Virus record (IMG/VR): IMGVR_UViG_3300027687_000051
Coordinates: 1-28,755 of that record
Reading direction: 5' to 3' (one strand)
Source of the DNA: a virus
DNA length: 28,755 nucleotides
In this document: piece after piece, positions 585 to 20,600 of the stretch
How the letters are laid out: every line of letters begins with the position of its first letter
Numbering within the stretch: position 1 is the stretch's first letter
The notes under the pieces: generated by a model
Told to the model about the DNA's origin: nothing
Database searches by the model: none
Seen by the model: the letters and a program-made list of their open reading frames with translations, nothing else
Translations under genes and position numbers: made by a program

Positions 585-628
585 CCTAGAAAACCCCACT
601 ACGTTTTATAGTAGTGAGGTAAACTAGG
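585..628 (-). ncRNA. conserved leader hairpin, copy S1
   Basis: Read on the minus strand: an outer stem CCTAG/CTAGG, an internal loop, an inner 9-bp stem CCTCACTAC/GTAGTGGGG with a U-G pair at its third position, and an 8-nt loop. It is followed by TTTT and then the motif GGTA. On the plus strand the U-G pair would be a C-A mismatch, so the functional RNA is the minus-strand transcript. Copies at 1899-1950 and 2241-2277 share this fold. It lies 22 nt before the start of the 59-residue gene. It resembles an intrinsic terminator but no promoter follows, so an attenuator or an RNA-processing element is also possible. Confidence 0.65.
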
Positions 629-650
629 ACTTAACAACAATTATTTATTT

Positions 651-848
651 TTATTTACTATTAAAGCATATGTCTGAAGGTTTTGTTGCTACTATTAGTT
701 TTGAATATATATCTTCCATGATAGCTTTCTGTTTATCTGCTTCCATGCTTATATCATCTCTCATGTCGTATAGCAAATAAGATTCTACTGATATTGTTAA
801 TAATTCTAATTCTTTTCTATTTAATGATAGTTCCGTTGATATTTTCAT
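651..848 (-). CDS. hypothetical protein, 65 aa
   Basis: Small, Glu/Leu-rich, predicted helical protein (MKISTELSLNRKELELLTIS at the N-terminus). It overlaps the upstream 60-residue gene by an ATGA stop/start overlap at 845-848, so the two are probably translated as a coupled pair. No signal peptide, metal-binding cluster or membrane segment is visible, and I do not recognise a family. It sits in the leftward operon between the methyltransferase module and the hairpin at 585-628. Confidence 0.65.
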   Translation of the reverse strand: MKISTELSLNRKELELLTISVESYLLYDMRDDISMEADKQKAIMEDIYSKLIVATKPSDICFNSK

Positions 849-1027
849 ATGTATAAATTTTTAGGGTTATGATTCTTATTGTCTTGATATTCTAGGATAG
901 CGTAGACATCTCCTTTGTTTTCGTATGCAAACTTCATTGCATCTTTTTTAGTTTCAAAGTCATAGTCATTTTCTATGTAATCTCCACTATCTGTGTACTC
1001 TCGTAACTCTACTATATAATTTGGCAT
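845..1027 (-). CDS. hypothetical protein, 60 aa
   Basis: Small acidic protein starting MPNYIVELREYTDSGDYIEN and rich in Asp, Glu and Tyr. The pattern FETKKDAMKFAYENKGDVYAI suggests an alpha/beta fold with an amphipathic helix, but no family is recognised. The start follows the methyltransferase stop after an 18-nt AT-rich gap without any structured element, and the end overlaps the next gene as ATGA. It probably belongs to the same processed mRNA as the methyltransferase. Confidence 0.65.
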   Translation of the reverse strand: MPNYIVELREYTDSGDYIENDYDFETKKDAMKFAYENKGDVYAILEYQDNKNHNPKNLYI

Positions 1028-1045
1028 TTTATTTATTTTAATTAA

Positions 1046-1882
1046 TTATAATTCTAGTTCTGACTCGTTAGCGTGTTCTATCCAATCTGTATCATCATAT
1101 TCAGATAAAAAAGGTTCTTCTAAATATCGTGGAAAGCCACTATTTAAATAATACTCTTTTACTTGCTTGACATTGTAGCCATTATGTGTTTCTGATTGTT
1201 CACAAAAGGTGTGAATCAAATCTAGCAGTTCCTCTGCTGACTCTATAAACTCACTACACAAATCCTTTGGTATCTTACTTCTTTCGTGATTACCTTTAAG
1301 ACCTTGTGTACCAGTCTGACTTCCTCTTGGTGCTGAAACGTGACATGGGTCTCCATTCTTACACATAGCTTTTGGATTCCAATGTGTGTCATTTGTCCAT
1401 ATGTCAGTTGGTTTCATTCTTGTATCTCCATACTGACAATAAGTTATAGTCTCTCTTCTGTGCTTGAATTTTGTCCAATGAGGTGCTTTACGCATTTTAC
1501 CTCTTGGGTTTTCTACATACCATATAAGACTAGGGTTTTTCTCTAAATAAAATTGTATAATTTCTAAAGTTTTCTCTAGGATCTTCAATCCTACTAAATC
1601 TTTATTTCTAGGTTTAAACTCGTGTCCACTTACCCATTTTTTACCTATACAAGCTACTGAAAAGTCTGTACAAGGTGGTGATGCCCAGATAACATCTGGA
1701 ACGTAGAATTCATCTAAGTCTCCTACTTGCATTTCATTTAATCTGTAGTCCCAATCTAAGATGTCTCCTACCCAATTAGTATTTGGGAAAGGCACATTGT
1801 CAACTGAGAATACAGAATGGTCACGTTGTTCAGCTACTTTGCCGATACTACGTGAGCCACTAAATAATTCTAGTATTTTCAT
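1046..1882 (-). CDS. DNA C5-cytosine methyltransferase-like protein
   Basis: 278 residues. It carries the AdoMet-binding motif I LELFSGSRSIG (residues 4-14) and the motif IV segment ASPPCTDFS (67-75), in which Cys71 would be the nucleophile attacking cytosine C6. VENP (123-126) stands in place of the usual ENV motif VI, and QYGDTRMKPTDIW (150-162) resembles motif VIII. The length is short for a bacterial C5 methyltransferase and the target-recognition region is small. This is common in phage orphan methyltransferases that protect DNA from host restriction. No restriction enzyme gene is adjacent. It is preceded by the conserved hairpin S2. The enzyme class is well supported; the target sequence cannot be read from the gene. 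Confidence 0.88.
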   Translation of the reverse strand: MKILELFSGSRSIGKVAEQRDHSVFSVDNVPFPNTNWVGDILDWDYRLNEMQVGDLDEFYVPDVIWASPPCTDFSVACIGKKWVSGHEFKPRNKDLVGLKILEKTLEIIQFYLEKNPSLIWYVENPRGKMRKAPHWTKFKHRRETITYCQYGDTRMKPTDIWTNDTHWNPKAMCKNGDPCHVSAPRGSQTGTQGLKGNHERSKIPKDLCSEFIESAEELLDLIHTFCEQSETHNGYNVKQVKEYYLNSGFPRYLEEPFLSEYDDTDWIEHANESELEL

Positions 1883-1898
1883 AATATATTTACGTTTT

Positions 1899-1950
1899 GA
1901 TTAGTACCCAAAAATCCCCAATGCATTTACGCATTGAGGCATTGGGAATC
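1899..1950 (-). ncRNA. conserved leader hairpin, copy S2
   Basis: Minus-strand reading gives three nested stems: GATT/AATC at the base, CCCAA/TTGGG, and an inner CCTCAATGC/GCATTGGGG closed by a 6-nt loop. The inner stem differs from S1 and S3 in four successive pairs that all remain complementary, while the U-G pair and the following T-run and GGTA are kept. The 3' flank TAATCAAAACG is identical to the sequence after the cleavage site of the hammerhead at 2715-2768. It precedes the methyltransferase start by about 16-24 nt. Confidence 0.68.
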
Positions 1951-1967
1951 AAACAATTCTTTATAGC

Positions 1968-2219
1968 TTATAGTGTGGGGATTGTATCATAATCTTCTAT
2001 GGTAGTGAATAACGCACCACCATCATTACCTTCATCATCTCTTGAAGAATACATCCAAAACTGCTCTCCATTTGGCTTTGACATTAACATACACAATGGA
2101 GATTTGTGCCACCCCATAGTATCTGTTTCTTTTTCTGACATATATTGTACTTTTAATATTTGACATCCTACTAAGTTATCCTTAGCTAGTTCAGTCCATT
2201 TTGTTTCAATCTTATTCAT
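1968..2219 (-). CDS. hypothetical phage protein, 83 aa
   Basis: Begins MNKIETKWTELAKDNLVGCQ and contains VQYMSEKETDTMGWHKSPL (about 24-42) and SSRDDEGNDGGALFTT (about 58-73). The combination of a YMS-E-GW stretch and a DDEGND-GAL stretch is a pattern I associate with a widespread small phage protein of unknown role, so I treat it as a conserved hypothetical. It is cytoplasmic by appearance. The start lies 21-28 nt after hairpin S3, and the methyltransferase leader S2 follows its stop. Confidence 0.7.
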   Translation of the reverse strand: MNKIETKWTELAKDNLVGCQILKVQYMSEKETDTMGWHKSPLCMLMSKPNGEQFWMYSSRDDEGNDGGALFTTIEDYDTIPTL

Positions 2220-2240
2220 AATAATTGTTGTTAGTTAGTA

Positions 2241-2277
2241 CCTAGAAAACCCCACTACGTTTGATGGTAGTGAGGTT
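2241..2277 (-). ncRNA. conserved leader hairpin, copy S3
   Basis: Minus-strand reading gives an 11-bp stem, AACCTCACTAC paired with GTAGTGGGGTT and including the constant U-G pair, closed by an 8-nt loop. It is followed by TTCTAGGTA. The inner stem and its 3' flank are nearly identical to S1, but the outer CCTAG strand is missing, so only one tier forms. It begins 6 nt after the stop codon of the 44-residue membrane protein and precedes the 83-residue gene. Confidence 0.65.
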
Positions 2278-2283
2278 ATTTGT

Positions 2284-2418
2284 TTAATGAAATATGTGCA
2301 TCATCATTATAAAGAAGCTGAACATAATAGTGAGGAATATAAGCCACGTAAAGGTCTCTAATGGATTCTTATATACTTGCTTTATCATATCTATGTGAAA
2401 CTTTATAAACTCTTTCAT
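2284..2418 (-). CDS. small membrane protein, 44 aa
   Basis: ATG at 2416-2418 overlaps the stop of the upstream gene (ATGA arrangement), with TAA at 2284-2286. The N-terminal half is amphipathic (MKEFIKFHIDMIKQVYKNPL). The C-terminal half, WLIFLTIMFSFFIMMMHIF (about residues 25-43), is a clear single transmembrane helix. The orientation is probably N-in because of the lysines before the helix. No family is recognised; a host-membrane or superinfection role would be a guess. Coupling with the upstream gene and exact fit into the gap support it as real. Confidence 0.62.
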   Translation of the reverse strand: MKEFIKFHIDMIKQVYKNPLETFTWLIFLTIMFSFFIMMMHIFH

Positions 2419-2702
2419 AGAGGGCAATTTCTGTCATATTCTAAATCTTTTGAGATTTCAAGTTCTATCTCTTCAATCATATGCTCTAGCAGTTCTGTAA
2501 CACAATCTCCATTTAGTTTCATTGAATCAACTTCTACTGACTCTGCAAATGATGGTGTATCATAATCTCCTTCTTGCTTTGGTATCACAGAATAATACAC
2601 ATCTACAATGTTATTTGGAGTCAATTCATATTTCCACACATTGGGTTTCTTTTGCACAATATTCATACATTCTGTAAGGTAACTATCTAATGTTCTTTTC
2701 AT
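2415..2702 (-). CDS. hypothetical protein, 95 aa
   Basis: An upstream in-frame ATG at 2727-2729 lies inside stem III of the hammerhead ribozyme, so I choose the ATG at 2700-2702 as the start. It lies 18 nt after the predicted cleavage site. The protein begins MKRTLDSYLTECMNIVQKKP and has an acidic C-terminal half (for example ELLEHMIEEIELEI). No catalytic motif or membrane segment is visible and I do not recognise it. The stop overlaps the start of the 44-residue membrane protein, so the two would share one processed mRNA. Confidence 0.7.
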   Translation of the reverse strand: MKRTLDSYLTECMNIVQKKPNVWKYELTPNNIVDVYYSVIPKQEGDYDTPSFAESVEVDSMKLNGDCVTELLEHMIEEIELEISKDLEYDRNCPL

Positions 2703-2714
2703 AATTTTCGTTTT

Positions 2715-2768
2715 GATTAAGACTAGCATCTCTGCTAGTTTCGGATATTAAATCCTCATCAGTTAATC
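2715..2768 (-). ncRNA. type I hammerhead ribozyme, copy E
   Basis: On the minus strand, 5' to 3': stem I GATTAA (2763-2768), CTGATGA (2756-2762), stem II GGAT/ATCC with a 5-nt loop (2743-2755), GAAA (2739-2742), stem III CTAGCA/TGCTAG with a GAGA loop (2723-2738), triplet GTC (2721-2723), stem I TTAATC (2715-2720). Every position of the standard catalytic core is present. Cleavage is expected between 2721 and 2720. The TAA in stem I at 2763-2765 is the stop codon of the upstream 94-residue gene. Confidence 0.93.
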
Positions 2769-3049: not shown

Positions 3050-3322
3050 TTATTTATTTTTATAATTAATAGTTGTACCATACTCATTAGTTTGAAAATA
3101 ACATTCTCCGTAGTAAAACTCCTTGACAAAATAATCATATAGTTTTTTAATACTATCTATTCTGTTGCGATATTGAGCATCTTGTGTTCTGTAATATATT
3201 TTTACTGGTAAAGGTGTTGTAATCTCTCTTATAACATTACCATCTGCATACCACTCTCTAAATTGGGTATAATAAGCTTTGCCTATTATATCTTGGTCTA
3301 TCTCGTTAAATTCTGTGTTCAT
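3050..3322 (-). CDS. hypothetical protein, 90 aa
   Basis: Begins MNTEFNEIDQDIIGKAYYTQ and is unusually rich in Tyr, Asp and Asn, with a basic stretch in the middle (VKIYYRTQDAQYRNRIDSIK). No signal peptide, membrane segment or known motif is seen. The start lies 18 nt after the predicted cleavage site of hammerhead D, and the gene is followed after 2 nt by the coiled-coil gene. Confidence 0.65.
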   Translation of the reverse strand: MNTEFNEIDQDIIGKAYYTQFREWYADGNVIREITTPLPVKIYYRTQDAQYRNRIDSIKKLYDYFVKEFYYGECYFQTNEYGTTINYKNK

Positions 3323-3334
3323 AATTTATGTATT

Positions 3335-3395
3335 GATTAGGACTATGCTAGTTGCCTAACATAGTTTCGGATATTGAATCCATCATCAGCTAATC
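3335..3395 (-). ncRNA. type I hammerhead ribozyme, copy D
   Basis: On the minus strand: stem I GATTAG (3390-3395), CTGATGA (3383-3389), one extra U (3382), stem II GGAT/ATCC (3369-3381), GAAA (3365-3368), a 9-bp stem III with GCAA tetraloop and one U-G pair (3343-3364), GTC (3341-3343), stem I CTAATC (3335-3340). Cleavage is expected between 3341 and 3340. Stem I changes from the A-U pair of copies C and E to G-C, and this keeps a stop codon (TAG instead of TAA) for the upstream gene. The extra U beside stem II is unusual and may slow or abolish activity. Confidence 0.82.
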
Positions 3396-3791
3396 TTCTT
3401 CTTCTTCCTCTTCTATTTCTACCTCAAAGTATTCACATAGATTCTCTCTATGCACTTCATCATCAATCCATTGGTCTTCTAGTTCCTCAAGGATTTCTTG
3501 GTCAAGATGTAAGATAGCATCTACCTCTATATTGAAATTGTAATTCTCTCCACTTAAGAATTCCCATAACGCTTCATGTAAATCGTAGTCTTCTAGATAT
3601 ACATTCTCTGCAAGATTTAGTCTGTCAGTGTCTTTTAAAATATATAAAGTGTTACCACACGCTGAATCTTCTGAGTGACAATAGTAGTCAGCAGTTGCTG
3701 ACCAATTGTCTTGGATTTTTACGTTTGCATACTCATGTAAGAACTCTTTAAGAGTTATAGTTGCAAACTGAGTTGTTGTAATTTTATTCAT
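3390..3791 (-). CDS. acidic hypothetical protein, 133 aa
   Basis: Strongly acidic protein ending in a poly-Glu/Asp tail (EVEIEEEEEED). The N-terminus is MNKITTTQFATITLKEFLHE. The middle holds YYCHSEDSACGN (about 36-47), which has two cysteines that could bind metal or form a disulfide. The acidic, DNA-mimic-like charge invites comparison with anti-restriction or anti-CRISPR proteins, but this is only a charge argument and no family is recognised. The start lies 25 nt after the predicted cleavage site of hammerhead C, and the TAG stop is part of stem I of hammerhead D. Confidence 0.68.
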   Translation of the reverse strand: MNKITTTQFATITLKEFLHEYANVKIQDNWSATADYYCHSEDSACGNTLYILKDTDRLNLAENVYLEDYDLHEALWEFLSGENYNFNIEVDAILHLDQEILEELEDQWIDDEVHRENLCEYFEVEIEEEEEED

Positions 3792-3810: not shown

Positions 3811-3864
3811 GATTAAGACTAGTATCTCTACTAGTTTCGCATATTAAATGCTCTTCAGTTAATC
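3811..3864 (-). ncRNA. type I hammerhead ribozyme, copy C
   Basis: On the minus strand: stem I GATTAA (3859-3864), CTGAAGA (3852-3858; position 7 is the variable core base), stem II GCAT/ATGC (3839-3851), GAAA (3835-3838), stem III CTAGTA/TACTAG with a GAGA loop (3819-3834), GTC (3817-3819), stem I TTAATC (3811-3816). Compared with copy E, stem II swaps a G-C for a C-G pair and stem III swaps a C-G for a U-A pair, both compensatory. Cleavage is expected between 3817 and 3816. The UGA of the catalytic core is also the stop codon of the upstream 79-residue gene. Confidence 0.92.
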
Positions 3865-4094
3865 TTGAATTCCCCCAGTGAATTTACTGATGTCAATCCA
3901 TCTTTCATACTTAAGTAATACCCTTTATCTATTAGGTTATTCATTACAGATGCACAACAATCTATAATGTCTATTGTAAATTCTGTCGACCCTAGATTAC
4001 CAACATAACCATTATTTGGTTTATTGATTAGTATTTTAGTAGAGTGATTAATTGATAAGATGGTAATTGCTTTTAAAAATTGTGATTCTTTCAT
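3855..4094 (-). CDS. hypothetical protein, 79 aa
   Basis: Begins MKESQFLKAITILSINHSTK, with an N-terminal helix followed by a short segment NKPNNGYVGNLGSTEFTIDI. It is neutral to slightly basic, with two adjacent cysteines (CC, about residue 53). No family is recognised. Its stop codon TGA (3855-3857) is read from the conserved CUGAAGA core of hammerhead C. Its start lies 26 nt after the predicted cleavage site of hammerhead B. Confidence 0.66.
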   Translation of the reverse strand: MKESQFLKAITILSINHSTKILINKPNNGYVGNLGSTEFTIDIIDCCASVMNNLIDKGYYLSMKDGLTSVNSLGEFKIN

Positions 4095-4114: not shown

Positions 4115-4163
4115 AGTTAAGATGCCTCTCGGCATTTCGTCCTTATGGACTCATCAGTTAACT
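4115..4163 (-). ncRNA. type I hammerhead ribozyme, copy B
   Basis: The most compact copy, 49 nt. On the minus strand: stem I AGTTAA (4158-4163), CTGATGA (4151-4157), stem II GTCC/GGAC with a 4-nt loop (4139-4150), GAAA (4135-4138), stem III TGCC/GGCA with a GAGA loop (4123-4134), triplet ATC (4121-4123), stem I TTAACT (4115-4120). The AUC triplet pairs with U after GAAA in place of the usual G with C, another compensatory change. Cleavage is expected between 4121 and 4120. The upstream stop codon lies 3 nt before stem I. Confidence 0.92.
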
Positions 4164-4166
4164 AAC

Positions 4167-4400
4167 TTACCACTCGTTTTTAAAGTAGGTTGTACAATAT
4201 GCATGACCATATCCCTCACCAACTTGACAATTCATATTTGCAGTCATCTCTTTGCAAAACTTTGCATATGTCATACCTTTTAGACTATTCTCTACTCCAG
4301 ATTCTGCATAATTCCTTGCACATTCAAATGCTAACTTCTTGTTTGTGAATACTCCAAGTATCCCATCTTCACTACCTTGTACTACGATTAATTTACTCAT
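4167..4400 (-). CDS. hypothetical protein, 77 aa
   Basis: Begins MSKLIVVQGSEDGILGVFTN, with a beta-strand-like start and a later helix (KKLAFECARNYAESGVENSL). Four cysteines are spread through the chain without a recognisable zinc-binding spacing. The C-terminus is GHAYCTTYFKNEW. The opening pattern is like small phage proteins that carry a KLIVV strand, but I do not recognise the family. The start lies 31 nt after the predicted cleavage site of hammerhead A, and the stop lies just upstream of hammerhead B. Confidence 0.66.
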   Translation of the reverse strand: MSKLIVVQGSEDGILGVFTNKKLAFECARNYAESGVENSLKGMTYAKFCKEMTANMNCQVGEGYGHAYCTTYFKNEW

Positions 4401-4425: not shown

Positions 4426-4529
4426 TTAAGTGACTATCACTCTGTGATCAAATTATGTCTCTACTCTAGTAGAGGGGCATAAAAAGTGATAGTTTCGTAG
4501 GTGTTTAGACCTTTACTCATCAGACTTAA
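4426..4529 (-). ncRNA. type I hammerhead ribozyme, copy A, with expanded stem III
   Basis: On the minus strand: stem I TTAAGT (4524-4529), CTGATGA (4517-4523), an interrupted stem II GTA/TAC plus GGT/ACC (4497-4516), GAAA (4493-4496), an 8-bp stem III base CTATCACT/AGTGATAG (4434-4441 with 4485-4492), GTC (4432-4434), stem I ACTTAA (4426-4431). Stem III carries an extra domain with its own pairings TTATG/CATAA and CTCTAC/GTAGAG. Cleavage is expected between 4432 and 4431. The TAA stop of the upstream 26-residue reading frame is inside stem I. Confidence 0.87.
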
Positions 4530-4606: not shown

Positions 4607-4860
4607 TTTAGTGTGGTTTTATTTGTTATTAAGTTACTATCCGAGTGATTTATATTGACTTTCCCCCTCTTGTGTTTAATGTCATATAGCTAAACAATTT
4701 GTTTAGGTAACGTGGGCTAAGGTGCTGACAACCAGTTTGTTATCAATGTAAATCAGTATGTTTGGGAACGGGTATACCTCTCGGTATGATGTAAAAGTAC
4801 ACATAATTTATAAGATGACAATAACTTTATTAAACTATCTTCATAACTATATATAACCTG

Positions 4861-4948: not shown

Positions 4949-5035
4949 CTAACGTTTAAGCTTATGATGTACCGAACAGGGGTTATCCCTTCGGTCTTGA
5001 TGTGGTCATCACCTTGCTAGCTAGCAGTACGTTAG
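4949..5035. other. branched inverted-repeat fold
   Basis: A 7-bp closing stem, CTAACGT (4949-4955) with ACGTTAG (5029-5035), encloses three hairpins. These are ACCGAA/TTCGGT plus GGG/CCC (4971-4995), TGATG/CATCA with TGGT loop (4998-5011), and the palindrome TGCTAGCTAGCA (5015-5026). The nesting resembles a multi-branched structured RNA or a cruciform-forming origin. Function and strand are unknown. Confidence 0.5.
5015..5026. repeat. 12-bp perfect palindrome TGCTAGCTAGCA
   Basis: Perfect dyad inside the branched fold; a candidate protein-binding site or hairpin arm. Confidence 0.55.
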
Positions 5036-9101: not shown

Positions 9102-9724
9102 TGGCTATTAAAAAAAAAGTACAAGTTACCTCTACAACTGCAGTTAAAAGAAGAAGAAAAAGAAAAGGAGAAACTGTAGGAAGAGTAAAAAAAGCTACTA
9201 CTACAAGATCTGATGGAACTAAATCTGTTACTAAAACTAATAGAAGAGGCACGACTACAAGAACAAAAGACTATGGTGCTGGTAAATCAAAACCAAAAAA
9301 GGTAACGGTAAATAAGAAAGCGACTAGCATGCGTTATGCTTCTACAAAAGAAAAAACTTATAAAAAAGGCGTTAAAGGAGCTACTATAACAAAAGATAAA
9401 GGTACTAGATATGAGAGAACAACAACTCGTAAAGATAGAATAAAAAATACTAAAAGAGCAATCGGTAGAGGCGTGAAGAATGTTGCAGGAACAGCAGCAG
9501 TTACAGCAGCGATGTTATCTCCAGCAGGAACTATGCTTACAAAAGGAGCTTTAGCAGCAGGTGCAGGTTTGGTTGGTGCAGGTGGCGTACGATATGCAAA
9601 AAATACTGCAAAAGACATTGGAAGACGAGCTAAAAATGTTGGTAGTAAAATTAAAAAAGCAATTACAAAAAAAGTTAGCAAAGTTAAAGCTAACAGGAAA
9701 AAACCCAACAGAAAAAGAATATAA
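9101..9724 (+). CDS. basic protein with hydrophobic segment, 207 aa
   Basis: Begins MAIKKKVQVTSTTAVKRRRK. Basic Thr/Lys/Arg-rich sequence fills residues 1-125. The segment VAGTAAVTAAMLSPAGTMLT and ALAAGAGLVGAGG (about 128-162) is hydrophobic and Gly/Ala-rich, and a basic tail follows (KKAITKKVSKVKANRKKPNR). Composition and order match the preceding protein, so the two may be diverged paralogues. It could be a DNA-condensing or ejection-associated virion protein. The start overlaps the upstream stop by one nucleotide. Confidence 0.75.
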   Translation: MAIKKKVQVTSTTAVKRRRKRKGETVGRVKKATTTRSDGTKSVTKTNRRGTTTRTKDYGAGKSKPKKVTVNKKATSMRYASTKEKTYKKGVKGATITKDKGTRYERTTTRKDRIKNTKRAIGRGVKNVAGTAAVTAAMLSPAGTMLTKGALAAGAGLVGAGGVRYAKNTAKDIGRRAKNVGSKIKKAITKKVSKVKANRKKPNRKRI

Positions 9725-14967: not shown

Positions 14968-17637
14968 ATGGCAAACATAAATTTTTACGGAGATATAAAT
15001 CTCAAAAATAACCAACTAAAGGAATTTAAGGTTTATAATGTAGCAGGTGGTGGTTCAGGTAATCCAGGAGGTGAGGGTCAGTTAGTATATGACACAACTG
15101 GAAATGTTCTTCAATATCACGTAGGTGGTGGAACATGGGTTACTCTACAAGCTTCTTCTGGTGCAGGAACTGTAACTAGCGTAGGTTTAACAATGCCAGC
15201 TGCATTTACAGTTACAAATTCTCCTATAACAACAGCGGGAACATTAGCGGTAACTGGAGCAGGTACTACATCTCAGTATATAAGAGGAGATGGTACTTTA
15301 GCAACATTCCCAGCAATACCTCAAGGTGATATTACATCTGTATTAGGTGGAGCAGGAATTACAGTAACAAACTCAACAGGGCCTTCGCCTTCAGTTGCGG
15401 TTGATTACTTAGGTTCTGATAATGTTATCTTAGCTTCTGCTAATGGTACTGCAATTGCAGTAGCTGCTGGAGATAGAGTTTTACTTTCAGATACAAGTGA
15501 CAGTGGAAACGCTAAATATGTAAACATTTCTCAATTAACAGCTGCTGTAGGTGGAGGTACAGTGACTTCAGTAAGTGCATCAACAGCTGGAAACGCTTTA
15601 GATGTTGCAGTAACAAACGCTACAACCACTCCTGCTTTAGGATTTACATGGGCTGGAGCAGCATCACAATATGTAGATGGGGCTGGAGATTTAACAACAT
15701 TCCCTACAATACCAAGTGGAGCATTTACAGTAGACGCTCCAAACGGAACTGGTACTATGACAATCTCTTCTGGAGATACATTTGATTTTGATAATTCATT
15801 CTACGGTGGTGTTAATATAGAAAAAGTTCCAGCTTCAGACCAATTATTACTTGGTATGGATATTTCATCTATGATAACAGTAGGTGCAATTTCACCACTT
15901 GATTATATCGCAATACAAGATGCGAGTCAATCAAATAATTCTTATAGAGTATTAGTATCTACATTAACAGGTTCATTAAGTTGGACTTTAGCAGCAGACG
16001 CTGGTTCAAATCAAACGATAACAAACGGAAACACAGCTACTTTTGAAGGTGGTGCAAATGGAATTATATCAACAAATTCTTCAGCAACTGATACATTAAC
16101 CATTACTCACGCATTACAATCTCAATCGGATACTGTAAGTACATTAACACCAGGTTCTGGTGGAACATTTACAGCAATTGATTCTGTTTCAAGAAACGCA
16201 ACTGGTCACGTTACAGCATTAAACACTAAGACTGTAACAATGCCAACATCACCTACTGTATACAGTGGATGGTTATTAACTGGAGATAGTGGTACATCAG
16301 CAAACGTAACGGCTGGTTCAACTGCTACATTCCAAGGAGGAACAGGTATTACTACAAGTTCTAATGGATTTATACTTGATATAGCGAATGATGGTGTTCT
16401 TACCAATGTTGCAGGAACTGGAATAGGCGTAAGTGGAGCAACAGGTAATGTAACAATAAGTAACACAGGTGTTACTTCATTAATAGCTGGATCAAACATA
16501 GGTGTTTCAGCAGCAACTGGAGCGGTAACTGTATCTTACACAGGTGGAACTGGTACAATGTCTTCATTTGTTTTAGCAGGAGACACTGGTTCAAATCAAA
16601 CTATATCTAATGGTAATACATTAAGTATATTAGGTTCTGTAGGAATAGATACTGCTGCAAGTGCAACAGATGATTTAACTATTACTTTAGACTTAAACGA
16701 ATTACCAACAACTGGAACATGGACAGATTCAGCAGATACATTTGCTGTTGTTGACGGAACTGCCAATGCAAGAATAAAATCAACTGATATTGATTTAGGA
16801 AACTTTGGTACTTCAATGAACAATACGGCTGGTACAAGTCAGAAAATAACTAATCTTGCTCCTGGAACCGCAGGAACAGACGGGGTTAACGTAAATCAAT
16901 TAAACGCAGCAGTAATTGGACTTCTAGAATTTAAAGGAGGATTTAATGCAAATACAGGTGCTATTGATGGAGCGGCAACTAATTTAACAGTAGGAGCAGC
17001 GAGGGTTGCAATAGCTGTCGGTGATTTCTACGTATGTACTACCGCTGGTAATTTCTTTGGAAATGCAGCAACACCTTTAACACCTGGTGATCAGGTAATA
17101 GCAACTGAAGCAGCAGTAGCAGGAGCTTCTGTAGAATCTGATTTCGTAATAGTTCAGTCTGATACAGATTTAGCAACTGCAACAACAGTAGGTTTAGCTA
17201 GCTTCCCAACAGCTGGAGGGTTAGTTGTTTCAACTGGTGCAGTAAGCATGGCAACTGTCGGAGGTGCAGGTTCTGTAGGTTCAGCAAGTCAATCTTTATC
17301 AATGACAACAAATGACAAAGGAATTGTTACAGCTAAGTCAGCACAATCAATACAGATTGGAGCTGGTCAAGTAACAAACTTTTGTACTGAAGTTGAAGAC
17401 TGTGTTAACGCTGGATTCTTCTATCAAGTAACATTTGGAAATACATCTGATTTAAATTACACGATTAGTCATGGGTTTAACACAACAGATGTTATGTGTC
17501 AGATATATGAAGTATCTAGTGGGGACACTATATACGCAGAAGTTGAAAGAACATCTGCAACAGCTGTAACGGTTAGAACTAATACTGTTCCTGGAACAAA
17601 CGCCTGGAGAATATTAGTAACAAACGTATCAGCATAA
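14968..17637 (+). CDS. repetitive tail fibre protein, 889 aa
   Basis: A long, Thr/Gly/Ser/Ala-rich protein with almost no charged clusters. It carries repeats such as GTVTSVG and TTAGTLAVTGAGTTSQYIRG near residues 70-110, and TGVTSLIAGSNIGVSAATGA later. Each looks like a beta strand-turn module of a trimeric fibre. The N-terminus MANINFYGDINLKNNQLKEF would attach it to the tail. The last 70 residues contain a domain (FNTTDVMCQIYE and YAEVERTSATAV) resembling the end of the 242-residue protein. The fibre would bind the host surface. It lies 25 nt after the previous gene without a promoter. Confidence 0.85.
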   Translation: MANINFYGDINLKNNQLKEFKVYNVAGGGSGNPGGEGQLVYDTTGNVLQYHVGGGTWVTLQASSGAGTVTSVGLTMPAAFTVTNSPITTAGTLAVTGAGTTSQYIRGDGTLATFPAIPQGDITSVLGGAGITVTNSTGPSPSVAVDYLGSDNVILASANGTAIAVAAGDRVLLSDTSDSGNAKYVNISQLTAAVGGGTVTSVSASTAGNALDVAVTNATTTPALGFTWAGAASQYVDGAGDLTTFPTIPSGAFTVDAPNGTGTMTISSGDTFDFDNSFYGGVNIEKVPASDQLLLGMDISSMITVGAISPLDYIAIQDASQSNNSYRVLVSTLTGSLSWTLAADAGSNQTITNGNTATFEGGANGIISTNSSATDTLTITHALQSQSDTVSTLTPGSGGTFTAIDSVSRNATGHVTALNTKTVTMPTSPTVYSGWLLTGDSGTSANVTAGSTATFQGGTGITTSSNGFILDIANDGVLTNVAGTGIGVSGATGNVTISNTGVTSLIAGSNIGVSAATGAVTVSYTGGTGTMSSFVLAGDTGSNQTISNGNTLSILGSVGIDTAASATDDLTITLDLNELPTTGTWTDSADTFAVVDGTANARIKSTDIDLGNFGTSMNNTAGTSQKITNLAPGTAGTDGVNVNQLNAAVIGLLEFKGGFNANTGAIDGAATNLTVGAARVAIAVGDFYVCTTAGNFFGNAATPLTPGDQVIATEAAVAGASVESDFVIVQSDTDLATATTVGLASFPTAGGLVVSTGAVSMATVGGAGSVGSASQSLSMTTNDKGIVTAKSAQSIQIGAGQVTNFCTEVEDCVNAGFFYQVTFGNTSDLNYTISHGFNTTDVMCQIYEVSSGDTIYAEVERTSATAVTVRTNTVPGTNAWRILVTNVSA

Positions 17638-17664: not shown

Positions 17665-20600
17665 ATGGCTTACTCTAATCATTATAATGACCTAGTACTA
17701 CCATCTGGAACGAAATTACGTCTAGATGGTAGTAGCTCAGGTACTACTTACATCTCCAAAGTTGGGGCAGGTGCATCTATTACTATAACTACAGGAGGAA
17801 CATCGGCAGCAACTTTTTCAGCGACCAGTCAAACTTTTGCAGGCGATATAACTGTTTCAGGTGGAGACATAACATTAAGCGGCACAGGACGTATACAAGG
17901 AGTAGATACAGTATCTTCTAATACAGATGCGGCTAATAAATTATATGTAGACAATGCTGTTGCAGGTGTACCACAAGGGGATATTACAGCAATAACTGTA
18001 ACAAGCCCAATAACAGGAGGTGGAACAAGCGGATCAGTAGGAGTTGCAATTCAACAATCAAGCGGTTCTCAGTCTGGATACTTAAGTTCAACAGATTGGA
18101 CTACATTTAATGCCAAGACTACAAACACAGGAACAGTAACAGGAGTATCAGGTACCGCTCCAGTTTCTGTAACTACTTCAAGTACAGCTCCAGTAGTGTC
18201 TATGGCAGCAGCCTCTACTAGCGTAGATGGTTATTTGACAAGCGGTAATTTTACCACCTTTAATAACAAAACAACTAATACAGGTACAGTAACAAGTGTA
18301 GCTGCAATAACATTAGGAACTACTGGAACAAATTTAAGTTCTTCTGTAGCTAACGGCTCTACTGCGGCAGTAATAACTTTAAATGTTCCTACCGCTTCAG
18401 CAACAAACAGAGGAGCTTTATCTTCAACAGATTGGACTACATTTAACAACAAAACAACTAACACAGGTACAACTACAGCTAGCAACGTTCAAACATTTAC
18501 TAATAAGTCAGGAAGTAATAATCAATGGACAAATGATGCAGGGTATATAACATCAGCATCATTACCAACTGTAGGTAACGGAACGCTATCTATGACCACT
18601 AGTACAGGACTTGATGGTAGTGCAACATTCACAGCTAATCAATCTGGTAATTCATCATTTGCTGTTACATTAGATTTAACTGAAATAAGTTTAGGCGCTG
18701 GTCTAGATTCAACAGCAACAGGATTAACTTTAGATTTATCTGAATTTACAGATATGACTGCGACAATGATTGGTACTGATCAGTTTATTGTATTAGACTC
18801 AAATGCTGAAAGAAGAAAAGCAGCTAATGAAATAGGGTTAAGTATATTTAATAATGATGCTGGGTTTATAACATCAAGCAGTATACCTTCAGTTGGCAAT
18901 GGAACATTAACTGTTGAAGGAGGAACGGGAATGAGTGGCTCAGGGACATTCACTGCAAATCAATCAGGAAATACTACAATTACTCTTAATAATAGTATAA
19001 CAAACAATAATCAGTTAACTAACGGGGCAAATTATACAACTAATACAGGTACAACAACAGCATCTAACTCACAAACGTTTACTAATAAATCAGGTAATAA
19101 TACTCAATGGACTAATGGCGCAGGATATATTACATCAAGCAGTATACCAACAGTTAACAATTCTATTATAACTATAAATACTGGAACGGGGTTAACTGGA
19201 GGTTCTTCATTTACTTTAAACGGTTCAGCTGCAACTATAAATTTAGTAAATTCATCACCAGACACAGGTGTACCAGCTATTTTATCTAACGGTTCAACAC
19301 CAAGTTTAAACACTGGTATATCACAACTTGAAATAAGAACTTTAATTGGGGCGGGAACTTCAAGTACAACAGGTACAGTAACTGGAGTATCAGGTACTTC
19401 TCCAATATCTTCTTCAGGAGGAACAACACCAACAATATCTATTACTCAAGCAGGAGCAACTATATCTGGTGCTTTATCAAATACAGACTGGAACACATTT
19501 AACAATAAAACATCAAACACAGGTACGGTAACGGGAGTATCAGGCTCATCACCTATATCTTCTACAGGAGGAACGTCACCACAAATATCAATAGCAACGG
19601 CAAGTGGTTCTGTATCAGGAGCTTTGTCAAGTACAGACTGGACAACGTTTAATAATAAAACAACAAATACAGGAACAGTAACAAGTGTTAGTGGAACTGC
19701 TAACAGAGTATCGGTTACAGGAGGAAATTCTGCTGTAGTAAATGTTGTTACAGGTACGGTAACAGGTAGTTCAACAAATTTAGCAACAGGAGCGCAAATA
19801 CAAACAGCTATTGACACAGCTGTAACAGGAGTATTAAAATATGAAGGAACATGGAACGCAAGTACAAACTCACCAACATTAACAAGTGGGTCAGGAACAG
19901 TAGGAGAATACTATATAGTATCTGTAGCTGGATCTACTAACCTAGACGGCATAACAGATTGGGCCGTAGGAGATTGGGCAGTGTTTTCTGATCAAGCAAC
20001 AGATGCTTGGCAGAAGATAGATAATACTCAAGTTGGTAATGTAACAGGTAGTGGTTCATCAGGAAGAGTAGCATATTGGAACAGTGCTAGTAATATAACA
20101 AGTGATGCAGGATTTACATTTAATGGCAGTACAAATGCTTTAACTGTTACTGGTGCAATGACTTGGAGTGGTGGCGGATCAACAGAATCTAATTCTGCAT
20201 ATGATAATATGGTTACAGGTTTTGGTAATTCTGGTTCTTCTACAAAATTACTTACATTAACACAACAAGATGGTGGTACTTTAACTACATCTTTTAGTAT
20301 ACCTCAAGGTACAGTAACAACTGTTGGTGGAACAGGAACTGTTAGTGGACTTACACTTACAGGAAGCGTATCATCTACTGGTAATTTAACATTAGGAGGT
20401 ACTTTAAGTTTAACAAGCGGTAATGTTACAGGGGCTTTAGGGTTTACTCCTTATAGTAATGCGAACCCAAGTAGTTTTACATCATTTGCAGAGCCAGGAA
20501 TATTTTCAGGAGGTGGTACACCAACTTTAGCATCTGGTGTTACACAACTTGAAATAAGAACATTAATAGGAGCAGGAACAAGTTCTTCTTCTGGAGTTAC

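Follow-up and report, generated by a model that had tools for sequence, protein, structure and literature searches.

The RNase III sites of phage T7 are imperfect hairpins situated between cistrons, at which the transcript is cut. Hammerhead ribozymes provide a second means of separating cistrons, as they occur in clusters that flank single prophage genes and have been proposed to cut long phage transcripts into gene-length mRNAs (PMC3088659). Other RNAs keep company with such ribozymes, among them the RAGATH class, which was named for its association with ribozyme-associated genes. In the phage operon described here, hammerheads share the intercistronic junctions with a hairpin of another kind, which we refer to as S.

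The operon and its junction elements

The DNA analyzed (the window) comprises an entire IMG/VR contig of 28,755 b from a tailed phage with genes for GroEL, portal and terminase. Its terminase has 71% identity to that of Caudoviricetes MW202828 and 44% to those of the Flavobacterium elemo phages, and Cellulophaga phages also match. A minus-strand operon spans from ~4500 down to position 1, and its junctions carry five hammerheads (CUGANGA..GAAA core) upstream and, at three more distal positions, S3, S2 and S1:

4428..4527, minus strand: hammerhead with long stem III, core 4493-4523, before ORF 4167-4400
4115..4163, minus strand: hammerhead, core 4135-4157, before ORF 3855-4094 (Rfam Hammerhead_3, E 0.11, below gathering)
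3811..3864, minus strand: hammerhead with the CTGAAGAG core variant, core 3835-3858, before ORF 3390-3791
3335..3395, minus strand: hammerhead, core 3365-3389, before ORF 3050-3322
2715..2768, minus strand: type I hammerhead, core 2739-2762, before ORF 2415-2702
2239-2275, minus strand: S3, CCTCACTAC..GTAGTGGGG, TTTT, CTAGGTA, without an outer-stem partner; before 83-aa ORF 1968-2219, 19 nt from GGTA to ATG
1905-1939 (stem through GGTA; 1905-1946 with the outer stem CCCAA/TTGGG), minus strand: S2, CCTCAATGC..GCATTGGGG, ATTT, GGTA; before 278-aa ORF 1046-1882, 22 nt from GGTA to ATG
583-619 (stem through GGTA; 583-628 with the outer stem CCTAG/CTAGG), minus strand: S1, CCTCACTAC..GTAGTGGGG, TTTT, GGTA; before 59-aa ORF 383-562, 20 nt from GGTA to ATG

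The first-pass annotation had described S1, S2 and S3 as minus-strand hairpins lying just upstream of start codons, and this description was borne out: their folds have z values of -4.1, -4.2 and -4.6, respectively, each better than all 200 of its dinucleotide shuffles, and the ATG follows GGTA at 20, 22 and 19 nt. The 11-nt flank TAATCAAAACG that S2 was said to share with the hammerhead whose core is at 2739-2762 is indeed present at both. The predicted cut of that hammerhead, GTC|TTAATCAAAACG, is between 2721 and 2720, 18 nt ahead of the ATG at 2702; a longer ORF start at 2729 falls within the ribozyme. Part of the 278-aa ORF behind S2 resembles, at the DNA level, a gene for a cytosine-C5 methylase in Bacillus phage BM15.

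Two further observations concern this phage and its relatives. Similar noncoding stretches at 4766-4792 and 4972-5003 (GAAC.GGG..TACC..TCGGT.TGATGT) lie between divergent operons, a likeness seen by eye between stretches that the repeat finder left unpaired. In a cultured relative of the window phage, Flavobacterium phage elemoF_6-3D (MT497071), there are hammerhead-like cores on the minus strand at 16072-16096 and 17870-17894, and this phage may serve as a laboratory model for intercistronic hammerheads.

S is absent from Rfam 15, which at gathering thresholds gave no match in the window or at the S positions of relatives, and at relaxed E-values gave no S family, only a chance-level mir-450 match over S2. 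S1-S3 are not hammerheads, as they have no CUGANGA...GAAA core and the scan that detects their hammerhead neighbors misses them. Pistol, twister, twister-sister, hatchet and other Rfam families were likewise rejected for want of a covariance model match. The twister-sister-like minimal ribozymes (PMC11620745) cut at a conserved CA in an internal loop, and S has no such CA. A literature search that covered little subscription content found no earlier description of S.

Sequence and structure of the S family

The possibility that S is a local feature of the window was dispelled by a scan of viral contigs with the pattern CCTCA-N(8-24)-TGGGG-NTTT-NNN-GGTA, which matched at least 118 stretches. 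Among the 86 distinct matches listed, 60 have a stem that continues for three or more additional pairs and a loop no longer than 10. A covariance model search recovered copies beyond the pattern, showing G-C as the closing pair (GCTCA..TGGGC), compensation in the outer stem (ACACG..CGTGT) and an unaltered U-G pair. S is defined by a stem whose base is rich in G and C and whose third pair is, by strong preference, a U-G wobble; N-UUU follows, and GGUA comes after it, with its end exactly 11 nt away from the base of the stem. Since the first scan forced this motif, we also located elements solely through the protein homology of neighboring genes, and GGUA ends 11 nt from the stem base in all 24 of them. 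Similarly, in a hairpin scan with neither a wobble nor a T requirement, the GTA of U-G hairpins peaked sharply at the 11-nt distance (19, versus at most 3 elsewhere).

The U-G pair had been described as invariant, which is correct within the window; family-wide it is a strong preference only, with C-G (L584) and U-A (L588) versions and a CCTTGC..GCGAGG subfamily in which the wobble is at pair four. When C-G replaced U-G in a complete control scan, there were 15 structured matches, some of them another repeated motif, versus at least 60 with U-G. While GUA and UUU are conserved, the apical loop and the size of the internal loop vary across the family, the latter being absent (L588), 1x1, 2x2, 3x3 or 2x4 in predicted folds. 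Helices are long and imperfect in the S elements of the capsid lineage described below, and S3 is the inner hairpin alone.

The covariation of stems claimed in the annotation is strong for the inner stem and weaker for the outer. In the unforced inner stem of 58 distinct elements, 97% of cells are paired versus 59% in shuffles, and 81 cells are double-changed versus 20, although the S elements are mutually related and the shuffles therefore overstate the significance. The outer stem is present in S1 and S2 and missing in S3; the L275 copy of S1 has a compensated version (TCTAA/TTAGG). Across the family it is weak at a fixed register, and the register shifts among elements; in free register it is supported, with a pairing score of 588.5 versus 533 +- 11 for 1000 permutations. 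Unforced inner pairs comprise 26 U-G/G-U versus 4 C-A/A-C on the transcript strand, and because the former far outnumber the latter, and covariation is strong, we agree with the original proposal that selection acts on the transcript. The same strand bias speaks against an element acting at the DNA level, such as a ssDNA hairpin or a promoter.

Many relatives (for example, L005 at ~9222-9236, L041 and L043) have a tiny second hairpin (GAGGAATAATCCTC, AAGGCAATAATGCC) directly 3' of GGTA. A different repeated motif, tgtaccccaaaaacccCCCCACCCTTTAGGGTGGGGGTTTGGGGGTAcaactgcggg, likewise has GGTA behind a hairpin in the viral contigs L629, L638, L670, L671 and L681.

Placement and distribution

An ATG-initiated ORF begins within 60 nt of 87 of 90 S elements, and 79 of the 90 are placed between co-directional genes, with an upstream stop and a downstream start both within 60 nt. 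Full contigs usually have one to four copies, spread over a few kb of the same strand and often interleaved with hammerheads. No fewer than three contexts can be distinguished: the window phage group's operon, in which the orthologs of the 59-aa S1 gene (L269-L275) likewise have S in the leader; the position after the major capsid gene in a siphovirus-like lineage (phrog_10); and the region upstream of DNA polymerase genes (contigs L007 and L072). Relatives of the capsid-gene lineage that lack S have plain hairpins, terminator-like hairpins or nothing at that place.

Cellular genomes are nearly free of S. The pattern scan of cellular genome contigs gave at least 117 matches, nearly all without a stem, and among the matches listed the only clearly genuine S is in L201, an Aliivibrio MAG contig with a phage-type GroEL. 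Covariance model searches of cellular genomes, in which few candidates were scored per genome and the known positive was recovered, were positive in 0 of 395 and 1 of 369. Short BLAST searches of INPHARED with S sequences gave no convincing cultured phage with S; the best match (E 2e-4), in Pseudomonas phage 10P302A, was rejected as a terminator-like hairpin without GGUA.

Replacement of S by hammerheads

To find orthologous pairs with different leaders, the genes behind S were compared with those behind hammerheads. In the slot where the window has S2 ahead of the 278-aa gene, L251-L253 have a hammerhead (~78% amino acid identity), and where it has S3 ahead of the 83-aa gene, L250-L253 again have a hammerhead (64-72% identity). 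S and hammerhead leaders also alternate ahead of an 87-aa gene (L010 versus L004, L041 and L095; 64-75%) and a 130-aa gene (L008 versus L251 and L253; 46-47%), and a weaker fifth case involves genes of 71-78 aa (L251 and L252 versus L250; 39%). These exchanges at orthologous genes lend good support to the suggestion that S may be equivalent to the hammerheads.

The two elements are also similar in their geometry. The distance from boundary to ATG is mostly 14-24 or 29-38 nt for S and mostly 18-32 nt for hammerheads, and the predicted products begin alike: GGTA|CTAATCAAAACG for S2 and GTC|TTAATCAAAACG for the hammerhead. For the 278-aa gene, the hammerhead product is predicted to start UUAAUCAAAAC, and that of S, if cut after GGUA, would start CUAAUCAAAAC.

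Other ribozyme-linked RNAs were found in the vicinity of S. On L201, which has two S elements, a pistol ribozyme (2367-2433, minus strand; 64 bits versus an Rfam cut-off of 34.5) is in the leader of a 95-aa gene, and S leads the adjacent gene on the same strand. RAGATH-24 is located upstream of S in L019 and L073. At ~1310-1450 of L004, S is fused to a hammerhead, GGTA being followed directly by ribozyme stem I. The predicted hammerhead products of L041 and L095 can fold a 5'-terminal hairpin (AGTATCATAAGATACC), comparable with the tiny one that follows GGTA in many relatives.

Possible functions of S

We think, with slightly better than even confidence, that S is an intercistronic RNA cleavage site that is equivalent to the hammerheads and is cut at or near GGUA, either by a nuclease or by itself. 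If exchange with hammerheads preserves function, as the sequence comparisons lead us to infer, that function would be a cut beside GGUA; the GUA boundary as the putative cut site is taken solely from the alignment with predicted hammerhead products. A polycistronic phage transcript would be cut at S, in GGUA or immediately next to it, 11 nt beyond the base of the stem. Each downstream cistron would thereby be left with a leader that is either A-rich and short (about 14-24 nt) or opens with a small hairpin, and a stable hairpin would remain at the 3' end of the upstream RNA, so that S would do at its junctions what hammerheads do at neighboring ones.

With regard to the agent of such a cut, we tentatively favor a broadly conserved, RNase III-like host endoribonuclease over self-cleavage, at a likelihood that we would set short of even, because the S helix is simple and has few conserved unpaired bases. 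An RNase III-type nuclease fits the use of S across different phage groups. However, the sequence conservation of S and the missing outer stem of S3 argue against RNase III, and an outer stem that is weak at fixed register, and absent in S3, is ill suited to an RNase III site of ordinary length. The S motif was not found in the T7 RNase III region R1.1 or in the gene 3.8 leader.

Self-cleavage would be a special case of the cleavage site, in which S is a new class of ribozyme that needs no protein, and we consider it unlikely. Its active site would then be made up of the U-rich internal loop together with the GUA that follows the outer stem on the 3' side, an arrangement of similarly low likelihood, and S would be a very small ribozyme (about 45 nt, one imperfect hairpin) interchangeable with hammerhead and pistol in the production of single-gene messages, which we also doubt. 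In its favor are the slot shared with hammerhead and pistol, the swaps at orthologous genes, the operons shared with RAGATH-24 (making three ribozyme-linked RNA classes associated with S) and the occurrence of S in several unrelated phage contexts. Against it, S has few conserved unpaired nucleotides and its internal and apical loops vary, whereas known nucleolytic ribozymes have conserved cores, and its near-continuous helix is unlike a classical nucleolytic ribozyme.

The annotation had also offered a terminator-like attenuator, and a hairpin that terminates, attenuates or pauses RNA polymerase and so sets the expression of the next gene is, in our estimate, rather unlikely. A stem rich in G and C that runs straight into UUU(U) is as expected of a terminator, and in some relatives the capsid gene is followed by a terminator-like hairpin in place of S. 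Hairpin-stabilized pauses have a hairpin spacing similar to the 11 nt between the S hairpin and GUA, which favors a pause. As a control, viral contigs were searched on both strands for hairpins whose stem was limited to CCTCACTA/TAGTGGGG or the corresponding Watson-Crick stems, with no constraint on the flanks. Many viral hairpins with the same stem proved to be ordinary terminators with T6 or more and no GGUA, a point for termination, as these stems do terminate elsewhere in viral contigs. However, TTT plus GGTA at the S spacing was found in 18 of the 96 hairpins with U-G, among which loci found earlier are overrepresented, versus 0 of 210 and 0 of 94 Watson-Crick hairpins. In addition, an ATG-initiated ORF follows within 60 nt in only 58 of 148 same-stem T-rich hairpins without GGTA, versus the 87 of 90 noted above for S. 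In place of an uninterrupted U-tract of about 6-8, S has N-UUU, mixed bases and GGUA. The short, fixed NTTT, the GGTA at 11 nt and the intercistronic placement thus disfavor the attenuator, for which a swap with hammerheads would be unexpected.

Least probable of the RNA-level readings, and quite improbable, is a protein-binding or barrier hairpin that acts without itself being cut, either by stabilizing the ends of mRNAs or by controlling translation of the gene that follows: the nearby start codon, the additional small hairpins that many relatives have immediately after GGTA and the simple hairpins that fill the same slot after the capsid gene are in keeping with it, but it leaves the hammerhead swap and the fixed 11-nt GGUA unexplained. 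The plain or terminator-like hairpins, or nothing, found after the capsid gene would also fit a role in 3'-end stabilization or termination.

S is a widespread RNA element of tailed phages, to be added to the short list of gene-junction RNAs that accompany ribozymes. Junctions at which orthologous genes have either S or a hammerhead amount to swap experiments made by nature, and therefore the purpose of phage intercistronic ribozymes is directly testable. Should S prove to cleave itself, it would be a new ribozyme class; should a host nuclease cut it, protein-made and RNA-made cuts would be interchangeable in phages.

Comparison with known systems

The closest described counterparts of S are the type I prophage hammerheads (Perreault et al., 2011, PMC3088659), with which it shares operons, strand, intercistronic slot, distance to the start codon and, through the swaps, genes. 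Unlike them, S has neither the CUGANGA/GAAA core nor a three-way junction, and its cleavage is a prediction. Pistol (RF02679) resembles S in leading a gene that adjoins an S-led gene in L201, but pistol has three stems and a pseudoknot (PMC4604425), and S does not reach the Rfam thresholds for pistol. RAGATH-24 (RF03049) co-occurs with S in L019 and L073, and the same guilt by association with ribozyme contexts applies to both, although S matches no RAGATH model in Rfam 15.

Intrinsic terminators are like S in having a GC-rich hairpin followed by U residues. S differs from them in having N-UUU only, often a paired segment, GGUA at a fixed spacing and a position directly before start codons. 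The T7 RNase III sites are, like S, intercistronic imperfect hairpins; R1.1, however, has no CCUCA/UGGGG, GGUA or 11-nt rule, whereas S is conserved in sequence and often shorter. S is a family absent from Rfam 15, and the role of separating cistrons is one already known for hammerheads and RNase III sites.
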